Assembly: GCA_014380825.1 (NCBI GenBank)
Contig: JACMJD010000008.1
Location: forward strand, 1-5,814
Length of the DNA stretch: 5,814 nt
Direction: 5' to 3'
Source of the DNA: Phycisphaerae bacterium
GTDB taxonomy: Bacteria > Planctomycetota > Phycisphaerae > Tepidisphaerales > Tepidisphaeraceae
The notes under the pieces are model-generated. The model worked only from the letters and a program-made list of their open reading frames with translations, was not told the DNA's origin and searched no databases. The translations under genes were made by a program, and so were the position numbers. Below are positions 4,109 to 5,814 of this stretch, in pieces (the stretch's first letter is position 1; every line of letters begins with the position of its first letter).

Positions 4109-4819
4109 ATGAAGCATTATCGATTGAGTTGGATGATGGCGCTGCTCGCCGCGATCACGTTCGCGCTGCCGCTGGCCGGTTTCTCGGCGGCGCCGAAAGG
4201 CGCGTCGATGACCGATACGACGCATGCTTCCGGCGCCGCGGGTGGCGCAGATACGGCCGTGGATACGGGCGCTGGTCACGCTGGAGGCGGGCACGGAGCC
4301 GCGCCGCTGCTTCCATCAACTGCGCACGAAGCGCAGGAGTTCTTCTTGACCCCGGCCATATGGACCATCGTCATTTTCTTGATCATGCTGATCATCCTTT
4401 ACCCGATGGCGTGGAAACCCGTGCTCGCGGGGCTGAAGGCACGCGAGAAGCGCATTCGCGACGACATCGCCGGTGCCGAGGCGTCGCGGAAGCGTGCCGA
4501 AGCGACGCTTCAGGAATACGACGCGAAACTGGCTTCGGCACAGTCGCAAATCCGCGAAATGCTCGCCAAAGCCCAGGCAGATGGTGAGCAGCTCGCCACC
4601 AGCATTCGCATGACGGCCCAGAAGGAAGCGGAGGAGGCGAAGGATCGCGCGATGCGCGAGATCGACGCATCCAAGAACGCCGCGGTCGGCGAGATCTACA
4701 ACCAGGCCGCGGAGCTGGCGACCAACATCGCGTCGAAAATCCTGCGTCGCAACCTGAACGCCGACGACCAGAAGCAACTCGTCCGCGAGAGTTTGGATCA
4801 GTTGCAGACAATTAAGTAG
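4109..4819 (+). CDS. atpF: F1Fo ATP synthase subunit b with signal-like N-terminal extension
   Basis: Subunit b, the peripheral stalk that joins subunit a to delta/alpha. The 236 residues exceed the usual 155-175. Residues 1-28 look like a signal peptide: MKHYR, a hydrophobic core, then a small-residue site near SAA (26-28). Residues 29-72 are a Gly/Ala/Thr/His-rich linker. The true b membrane anchor lies at about 83-101, followed by AWKPVLAGLKAREKRI, the normal b junction. Residues about 110-205 form the charged Ala-rich coiled coil, and the C-terminus binds delta. The start is well supported by GAAGGA at 4097-4102, 6 bases before the ATG. An internal start at M34 (4208) would remove the signal-like part but still leave a long linker. 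If cleaved, the linker would be outside the membrane; if not, the protein would have two N-terminal anchors. Confidence 0.95.
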   Translation: MKHYRLSWMMALLAAITFALPLAGFSAAPKGASMTDTTHASGAAGGADTAVDTGAGHAGGGHGAAPLLPSTAHEAQEFFLTPAIWTIVIFLIMLIILYPMAWKPVLAGLKAREKRIRDDIAGAEASRKRAEATLQEYDAKLASAQSQIREMLAKAQADGEQLATSIRMTAQKEAEEAKDRAMREIDASKNAAVGEIYNQAAELATNIASKILRRNLNADDQKQLVRESLDQLQTIK

Positions 4820-4825
4820 AGGAGA

Positions 4826-4905
4826 GAGGGTAGAGGGCAGAGCTTAGAGGTTAGGAAAGATGAATTCACGTTCTTCCTAACCTCTAACCTCTACTCTCTA
4901 ACCTT
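4826..4905. repeat. Heptamer-built palindrome filling the atpF-atpH spacer
   Basis: The left arm (4826-4857) reads as four 7-bp units, GAGGGTA, GAGGGCA, GAGCTTA and GAGGTTA, then GGAA. The right arm (4874-4905) reads TTCC, then TAACCTC, TAACCTC, TACTCTC and TAACCTT. Pairing the arms gives 27 Watson-Crick and 2 G-U pairs out of 32, with a perfect inner block of 14 bp or more, around a 16-base loop. A further GAGGAGA unit (4819-4825) overlaps the atpF stop. The right arm ends 6 bases before the atpH ATG. It has no terminator T-tract. Confidence 0.9.
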
Positions 4906-4911
4906 TACCAC

Positions 4912-5475
4912 ATGCACGAACGCGCACACTATTCGATGACCGCTTTGAGCTACGCTAACGCGTTGCTCGAGCTGGCGGACGAGAGCAAGACGCCGCCGGA
5001 AGCGATCGCGGCTGACCTGGACGGCCTCCGCTCGCTGGTCGGGTCTGACGCGAATTTTCAGCTTTACCTCCGCGATCCATCCATCAGCAAGGAAGGCCGA
5101 TGGACCGTGTTGCGAAAGGTGCTGCAAGCTCAGGTCTCGCCGCTGCTGTTGCAGTTCATGGGCGTGTTGAACGAGAAGAACCGCCTTGGCCTGCTGACGC
5201 AGATCGCGGATGCGTTTGATGCCATCCTCGACGAGAAGCTCGGCAAGGTGGAAGTGGACTTGATCGTCGCGCACAAACTGTCGCCGGACGAACTGCGAGA
5301 TGCGACACAGCGCATCACGCAGGCGCTGAAGCGCGAGGCGGTGGTTCACCCATACGTCGACGAATCGATCATCGGCGGAATGATCCTGCGCGTGGGCGAC
5401 AAGCTGATCGACGCGAGCGTGAAGAATCAGTTGCACGCGATCAAAGAAAAGTTGTTGGCATCGAAGCCGAAGTAA
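4912..5475 (+). CDS. atpH: F1Fo ATP synthase subunit delta
   Basis: Delta subunit, which caps the alpha subunits and ties the F1 head to the b stalk. The 187 residues are a normal length. The N-terminal helical domain begins ALSYANALLELAD (11-23), the usual YA-x-AL pattern. The C-terminal domain carries the family signature from about 149 to 174 (VDESIIGG, then VGDKLIDASVKNQL). The first ATG (4912) has no Shine-Dalgarno; the bases before it are the pyrimidine-rich right arm of the palindrome. An in-frame ATG at 4936 (M9) would also give a complete domain and likewise lacks one. Translation may rely on coupling to atpF, leaderless-like initiation or an opened hairpin. Identity is secure, but the start is uncertain by eight codons. 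Confidence 0.95.
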   Translation: MHERAHYSMTALSYANALLELADESKTPPEAIAADLDGLRSLVGSDANFQLYLRDPSISKEGRWTVLRKVLQAQVSPLLLQFMGVLNEKNRLGLLTQIADAFDAILDEKLGKVEVDLIVAHKLSPDELRDATQRITQALKREAVVHPYVDESIIGGMILRVGDKLIDASVKNQLHAIKEKLLASKPK

Positions 5476-5481
5476 AAAAGA

Positions 5482-5567
5482 GTTGCTAGTTACTAGTTGC
5501 TGGTTGCTAGTAACGGCTGATTTATGCGGTGTTTTTAACTAGCAACTAGAAACTAGCAACTAGCAAC
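5482..5567. repeat. Heptamer-built palindrome filling the atpH-atpA spacer
   Basis: The left arm (5482-5511) contains four 7-bp units, TTGCTAG, TTACTAG, TTGCTGG and TTGCTAG. The right arm (5538-5567) contains CTAGCAA, CTAGAAA, CTAGCAA and CTAGCAA. The arms match at 27 of 30 positions, one of the three mismatches being a G-U pair in RNA, around a 26-base loop. It starts 7 bases after the atpH stop and ends 2 bases before the GGAG of atpA. The loop ends in a run of five T, but the stem follows rather than precedes it on the + strand, so this is not a + strand terminator. Confidence 0.92.
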
Positions 5568-5568
5568 C

Positions 5569-5572
5569 GGAG
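5569..5572 (+). promoter_or_regulatory. Ribosome binding site of atpA
   Basis: GGAG lies 6 bases before the atpA ATG and immediately outside the right arm of the preceding palindrome, so stem formation would leave it exposed but close to the base of the helix. Confidence 0.6.
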
Positions 5573-5578
5573 CGACAG

Positions 5579-5814
5579 ATGGCAATCAACGTTGCGGAAA
5601 TCACCAGTGTTCTGAAGCGCGAGATCGCGGGCTTCGAGCAGCAGGTTTCGGTCAGCCAGGTCGGAACCGTCATCGAAGTCGGCGACGGCATCGCCCGCAT
5701 CTATGGCCTGAAAGAGGCGATGGCCGGCGAGCTGCTGGAATTTGAAAACGGCACGATGGGTCAGGTCTTCAACCTGGAAGAAGACTCGATCGGCGCCGTC
5801 ATCTTCGGCAACTA
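5579..5814 (+). CDS. atpA: F1Fo ATP synthase subunit alpha, N-terminal fragment (cut by window)
   Basis: The first 78 residues of alpha, the non-catalytic nucleotide-binding subunit of the F1 hexamer. Residues 1-25 form the N-terminal helix that binds delta (ITSVLKREIAGFEQ). Residues 28-78 are the start of the beta-barrel domain, with the family pattern VGTVIEVGDGIARIYGL (28-44) and later NLEEDSIGAVIFG. The Walker A motif and the rest lie beyond the right edge. GGAG sits 6 bases before the ATG. The frame is open to the window end with no sign of damage. Confidence 0.97.
   Translation, partial: MAINVAEITSVLKREIAGFEQQVSVSQVGTVIEVGDGIARIYGLKEAMAGELLEFENGTMGQVFNLEEDSIGAVIFGN

Follow-up and report, generated by a model that had tools for sequence, protein, structure and literature searches.

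Two heptamer palindromes in an ATP synthase operon

The 5,814-nt stretch of DNA analysed here (the window) comprises, according to its open reading frames and their Pfam matches, an ATP synthase operon encoding the subunits a, c, b and delta, followed by the start of the alpha subunit gene (Table 1). Among its named protein relatives the delta subunit shares 52-54% identity with Tepidisphaeraceae records and 83% with a soil-metagenome record. Furthermore, a small, conserved-looking ORF without a Pfam match (2051-2449) was detected between an AtpI-like gene and atpB.

Table 1. Coordinates of the palindromes and neighbouring genes in the window, and of a second palindrome family in the relative G002
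Feature	Position	Strand	Remark
atpF (subunit b)	4109..4819	+	Pfam ATP-synt_B; neighbour upstream of palindrome 1
Palindrome 1, 5' heptamer array, TTAGAGG/GTAGAGG type	4818..4854	+	inverted arm 4827-4857
Palindrome 1, loop	4858..4873	+	
Palindrome 1, 3' inverted heptamer array, CCTCTAA type	4877..4907	+	inverted arm 4874-4904
atpH (delta subunit)	4912..5475	+	Pfam OSCP; between both palindromes
Palindrome 2, 5' heptamer array, AGTTGCT type	5481..5511	+	inverted arm 5482-5511
Palindrome 2, loop	5512..5537	+	
Palindrome 2, 3' inverted heptamer array, AGCAACT type	5538..5567	+	inverted arm 5538-5567
atpA start (alpha subunit)	5579..5812	+	Pfam ATP-synt_ab_N; continues past window end
CCCTCTCCC/CCCTCCCCC family sites (G002)	L122 41-141, L125 13875-13991, L142 1494-1598		
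CCCTCTCCC/CCCTCCCCC family sites (G002)	L143 12655-12760, L150 9185-9312, L151 2072-2172		

The spacers atpF-atpH (92 nt) and atpH-atpA (103 nt) are each filled by one palindrome whose arms are tandem arrays with a period of seven nucleotides. The arms of palindrome 1 (31 nt, 87% complementary) enclose a loop of 16 nt, those of palindrome 2 (30 nt, 90% complementary) a loop of 26 nt. All four arms show the period of seven, with 5.6 and 4.0 copies in palindrome 1 and 4.4 copies in each arm of palindrome 2; the estimate of about four units per arm in an earlier, sequence-only reading holds for three arms, whereas the first arm of palindrome 1 is longer. The outer units of both palindromes are imperfect on inspection, and the TTAGAGG-like and AGTTGCT-like units are unrelated to each other. 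A search for inverted array pairs with periods from 5 to 13 revealed two in the window, both of period 7 (none of periods 5, 6 or 8-13), and a period-7 inverted pair occurred in none of 300 windows shuffled in 100-nt blocks. The description of both spacers as inverted pairs of heptamer arrays is thus confirmed.

The palindromes also hug both flanking genes, as had been claimed. The first array of palindrome 1 starts within the stop codon of atpF (4817-4819), and 4 nt separate the end of its partner from the atpH start (4912), while palindrome 2 lies 6 nt 3' of the atpH stop and 11 nt 5' of the atpA start. The corresponding RNA hairpins of the + strand have predicted energies of -52.2 and -44.1 kcal/mol (z -8.6 and -6.1) for palindromes 1 and 2, respectively, and energies as low were reached by none of 200 shuffles. 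In the predicted fold of palindrome 1 exactly seven bases, corresponding to one unit, are bulged from the 5' arm. Intrinsic terminators were rejected on reading the sequence, since neither 3' arm is followed by a T run and the downstream atp gene begins 4 or 11 nt further on. A comparison with the Rfam families yielded 13 matches, all to microRNAs and all below the gathering score, which we ascribe to the hairpin shape.

Recurrence of the structure in related genomes

Scanning genome contigs by delta-subunit alignment revealed 13 loci, 12 in Phycisphaerae/Planctomycetota records and one in a Dehalococcoidia record. From the 26 genomes examined in the order of G004 the atpH locus was obtained for 24. 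Seven of 47 spacers in these 24 relatives (five of 24 atpF-atpH, two of 23 atpH-atpA) contain a 7-period palindrome, a count that excludes the window and one cut-off spacer and includes the atpH-atpA spacer of L019, which is interrupted by N and gives a value of -54; the palindrome is absent from the other 40. The units in the occupied spacers are AGTTGCC, GTTGCTG, CAGTTGT, ATTGCAG, ATTTGCA, TAAAACG and AGTTGCT; AGTTGC or GTTGCT is common to three of the seven, so not all pairs are unrelated. Single 7-period arrays lacking a partner were detected in five of the 47 spacers, and two further ones hold arrays or palindromes with a period of 8 or 10 nt. The atpH-atpA spacer of L026 (about 2056-2237) holds two nested element types, a period-10 CACAGATGAA palindrome enclosing a GTAGGGTCC-type palindrome.

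With a background of 17 pairs per 1,419 ORFs in the sampled stretches, counted without pairs lying at least 75% within called ORFs, 0.6 palindromes would be expected in 47 spacers versus seven observed (binomial P for seven or more 1.5e-6), a test that takes species as independent, assumes one spacer per ORF and draws on sampled genomes that are mostly not the hit-bearing ones. What recurs is the architecture rather than the sequence: the relatives carry comparable hairpins built of different words, in some cases in identical gaps.

A genome scan covered four relatives, G032 (288 kb), G017 (400 kb), G002 (646 kb) and G003 (386 kb), 1.72 Mb in all. Period-7 inverted pairs numbered 17 (4, 7, 6 and 0, respectively). 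Some contigs of the G002 sample had been chosen because they carry arrays or Y1 genes, which perhaps makes its density somewhat high. The pair L131 lies at the score threshold; the G017 pair L072 is wholly coding and was kept in the scan and position counts and dropped from the arm-mirroring and arm-unit tests. For the same genomes in the same order, the numbers of pairs were 0, 1, 0, 0 for period 6; 5, 3, 0, 0 for period 8; 0, 1, 0, 1 for period 9; 0, 1, 0, 0 for period 10; and 1, 1, 3, 0 for period 12. Part of these other-period pairs are coding repeats, and all five period-8 pairs of G032 are located on one contig. On G032:C10 (L052 299-9996) five period-8 palindromes with a AGAGACGA unit are spaced about 1.9-3.8 kb apart, mostly within called ORFs. 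Two shuffles of the 1.72 Mb contained no inverted array pair of any period. The same was true of 50 kb of E. coli and of 400 kb from G010, a more distantly related member of the Phycisphaerae. Furthermore, a direct CTAGGCA array of more than six units whose inverted partner is absent was found in G009:C9 (L014 1496-1542).

The genome scan proposed by the sequence-only reading, here run on relatives, therefore gave an excess over shuffled sequence, and this excess is lineage-dependent, G003 having no pair in its sample despite being close to G002. The proposal of a class defined by structure is supported, the units varying by genome and by site both in the scanned relatives and in the atp spacers, and the elements examined are mostly intergenic. 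The shared TAG is real in both units of the window but does not extend to the class, as GATTTTT, ATTGCAG, CGAACAT and other units lack it.

At the level of single families, the strict pattern GTTGCT..AGCAAC was detected in four of 397 genomes of the class, with 25 overlapping matches in G032, 26 in G029 and a single one in both G030 and G151. None of the 397 contains the opposite order. Strict sites number 11 in G032 and 11 in G029 (ten plus C217). Four exact GTTGCT units in a row occur at 46 places, and among the 20 whose loci were read the inverted partner lies downstream in 15 (G029 nine of ten, G032 six of ten), upstream in none and is missing in five. In G032 the 72 arm units that match GTTGCT at four or more of its six positions are 97% identical to it. 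GATTTTT is the common unit of G002 (four of six pairs), and the strict TAGAGG pattern of the palindrome 1 family was found in none of the 26 genomes of the order. Thus, the families are genome-specific and the GTTGCT family is of one polarity.

Judged against single-letter shuffles, the loops of G029 are mutually homologous (z 18.8); a weak similarity exists among the G032 loops (z 3.4) and none among those of G002 (z 1.0). By the same null the loop from the window bears a weak likeness to the G029 loops (22 of 500 shuffles were as good) and none to those of G032.

Two other kinds of palindromes were encountered. Y1-transposase genes in L092, L096, L107 and L108 have GTAG-type palindromes in their flanks, as would be anticipated for RAYTs with their REP elements. 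G002 carries a second family of dispersed palindromes, with CCCTCTCCC/CCCTCCCCC arms around GTAC (Table 1), and at two of its sites the aligned place in G003 is without it; the CCYTC repeat of Geobacter metallireducens class 4 may be compared with this family (PMC2700814).

The genomes G002 and G003 share 83-94% DNA identity over the compared stretches. An aligned G003 counterpart was obtained for four of the six G002 period-7 palindromes, and none of the four is kept in G003. By eye, one of these G003 sites bears a different palindrome, which the detector did not call and whose unit is ACAGAG-like. At the other three the spacer measures 38 nt and contains a short single array, 51 nt and contains a short GC-rich hairpin, and 46 nt and contains no array, respectively. 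This close pair thus displays gain or loss of palindromes. No clean insertion footprint was read between G002 and G003, the spacers being unalignable around the sites. The possibility that the loop is a relic of an older spacer was set aside, as the G002 loops bear no resemblance visible by eye to the G003 spacers.

Position, arm mirroring and comparison with known repeats

The flanking genes of 42 elements (L072 included) are arranged in tandem in 26 cases, convergently in 11 and divergently in five. The distance to the stop codon falls within -11 to +11 nt in 38 of 48 cases and that to the start codon is at most 17 nt in 24 of 36, although these data are ORF-based, take the start codon as the nearest downstream one in frame, a choice biased towards short distances, and include hand-set ends for palindrome 1. 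Pfam matches were obtained for 17 of 20 neighbour proteins and none for three; no transposase was among them. In 28 GTTGCT elements target-site duplications of 2-9 nt at fixed ends did not exceed those of shuffled pairs, and one of seven floating tests (length 9) reached p 0.01, with 14 tests altogether; base pairing in these elements extends one or two bases past the arms. An advantage of period 7 in closing all reading frames with stops was considered and set aside, the effect being slight (4.9 of 6 frames closed versus 4.3 +/- 0.2 in shuffled sequence).

The proposed test of whether the arms co-vary gave a positive result with caveats. When entire half-elements were compared and their register optimised anew, seven of 42 elements showed mirroring at p <=0.05 against unit-permuted arms (mean excess 3.6 matches), a version open to edge effects. 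In the aligned cores of 37 elements the pooled score was 773 versus 699 +/- 12 (top of 300 permutations, 736), a restriction that favours the observed register. Given these selection caveats it is likely, rather than proven, that the arms mirror one another's variants beyond what shared units alone provide, which supports, short of proof, templated correction or copying as a unit.

Several known repeat types resemble these elements in part. REPINs are short palindromes dispersed between genes, whose arms are single REP sequences and not heptamer arrays; dispersed intergenic palindromes are common to both. The cyanobacterial STRR sequences are intergenic tandem 7-bp repeats in direct arrays with other units and differ, as the sequence-only reading had stated, from the arrays described here. 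Closer published relatives are found in Xanthomonas and Geobacter.

Xanthomonas genomes carry hundreds of arrays of the heptamer GGGAATC, many of them unpaired, with a G-rich unit able to form quadruplexes (PMC4692102). Its paired arrays share with ours the 7-nt unit, about four units per array and an inverted pair in one orientation. In contrast, the window units TTAGAGG and AGTTGCT have no run of three G in their consensus, and the units here vary, are mostly not G-rich and form pairs that fill the gene gap, in another phylum. The classes 1-4 of Gmet_I in Geobacter metallireducens are tandem 7- or 8-mers, mostly in opposite-strand pairs at variable distance, with several classes per genome; class 1 has four units, the outer two poorly conserved (PMC2700814). 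They resemble the window palindromes in the pairing on opposite strands and the degenerate outer units, the class 1 unit GTTGCTYN resembles that of palindrome 2, and many copies per genome are likewise seen in the relatives G029 and G032. However, the class 1 units are octamers and are interpreted as IHF/HU binding sites, insertion sequences lie at a fixed distance, and the phylum is another one (PMC2700814). Intergenic multicopy sequences, some palindromic and some direct repeats of 6-42 nt, are described from G. bemidjiensis (PMC2996986). The TAACTGA repeats of Beggiatoaceae, a single unit, are nearly all direct (169 direct sets, one indirect), whereas the arrays of the window are inverted pairs (PMC4679880). 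Within the literature searched no such elements were found in Planctomycetes.

The same anatomy is therefore already known in Xanthomonas and Geobacter. Added here are the refilling of identical gene gaps with different words across species, the fixed polarity of one family over 397 genomes and the gain or loss in a close pair.

Possible origin of the palindromes

We see about an even chance that both spacers hold members of one structural class, in which roughly four imperfect heptamers (2-11 observed) are followed by a centre of some 12-60 nt and then by the inverted array, and that these palindromes are dispersed by copying in a REPIN- or MITE-like manner. The complete palindrome would spread by copying into further gaps, behaving as a non-autonomous element, and copies within genes would be lost through selection. 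Slippage together with hairpin-templated correction may then preserve the regularity and likeness of the arms, with the centre free to drift. Same-class copies are present in gene gaps at many unlinked sites with diverse neighbours, and terminal inverted repeats and dispersed copies, i.e. traits of MITEs, are present in the relatives. One unit at tens of sites, a fixed polarity and homologous loops in one genome together point to a ready-made element that was copied. However, the loops indicate copying of whole elements in G029 only, and unpaired arrays exist (five of the 20 read, five of the 47 atp spacers). No mobiliser was found among 20 neighbours compared with Pfam, and 30 Y1 loci contained no heptamer palindrome. 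The results on target-site duplications at fixed ends and the missing insertion footprint between G002 and G003 also count against dispersal. Furthermore, random insertion leaves the repeated filling of both atp gaps unexplained.

The latter would be accounted for if the palindromes were selected regulatory sites, either with arms bound by a genome-specific protein or with intercistronic RNA hairpins setting the expression of the neighbours, so that the arms but not the loop are kept. The near-uniform arm units of G032 beside hardly similar loops fit this assumption, as do the ends near start and stop codons and the ribosomal, ATP synthase and other housekeeping genes among the neighbours; for the paired arrays of Geobacter metallireducens, binding of IHF/HU has been proposed (PMC2700814). 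Selection thus explains the conserved arms, the drifting loops and the refilled atp gaps, but not the absence at orthologous sites, as none of the four G002 palindromes is kept in G003 and most atp spacers of the relatives do without one. The proximity to codons could also stem from the loss of other spacer DNA. On balance we consider selection unlikely to be the origin; a mixture of dispersal with retention where the hairpin is useful is possible.

Alternatively, each palindrome may have been written in place, an array growing by slippage, a template switch inverting it and hairpin-templated repair keeping the arms alike. The variation of units among sites and genomes, the mirrored variants, the arrays without partner and the dissimilar loops of G032 and G002 are consistent with this scenario, which corresponds to the slippage and templated inversion invoked by the sequence-only reading. 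That proposal is weakened as an event at each site by the recurrence of one unit at 11 strict sites in G029 and at 11 in G032, the single polarity and the homologous G029 loops. Dispersal by copying is the most economical explanation; writing in place covers the unlike loops and units but not the shared units and the polarity, and seems rather improbable.

It appears very unlikely that the palindromes are REPs or REPINs with unusual heptamer arms moved by a host RAYT (Y1 transposase). The hairpin shape, the intergenic position and a Y1_Tnp match in all 26 genomes of the order would agree with such a system; however, heptamer palindromes were found at none of 30 Y1 loci, a test of low power that covered 89 kb, with about one expected at background density, and thus indicates little more than a lack of enrichment; several of these loci are flanked by GTAG-type palindromes. 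Chance or base composition can practically be dismissed in view of the empty shuffles of the window (300) and of the genomes (two) and of the 450 kb from two control genomes without any pair.

More speculatively, and with doubt, a sequence-blind copying machinery may write or remodel inverted pairs of heptamer arrays, so that the words change while period, polarity, loop size and place stay, and gaps are refilled with unrelated words. If true, the paired arrays of Xanthomonas, Geobacter and Phycisphaerae would be products of one machinery.

Paired heptamer arrays have so far been reported genome by genome, under varied names and with varied roles. The refilled gaps, the fixed polarity and the pair of genomes with gain or loss make their origin testable as copying, writing in place or selection. 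Conserved operons are concerned, with strong hairpins a few bases from start codons. In the operon of the window, co-transcription of the genes would place strong hairpins just 5' of the atpH and atpA starts, which may loosen the translational coupling between the subunits or be merely tolerated.
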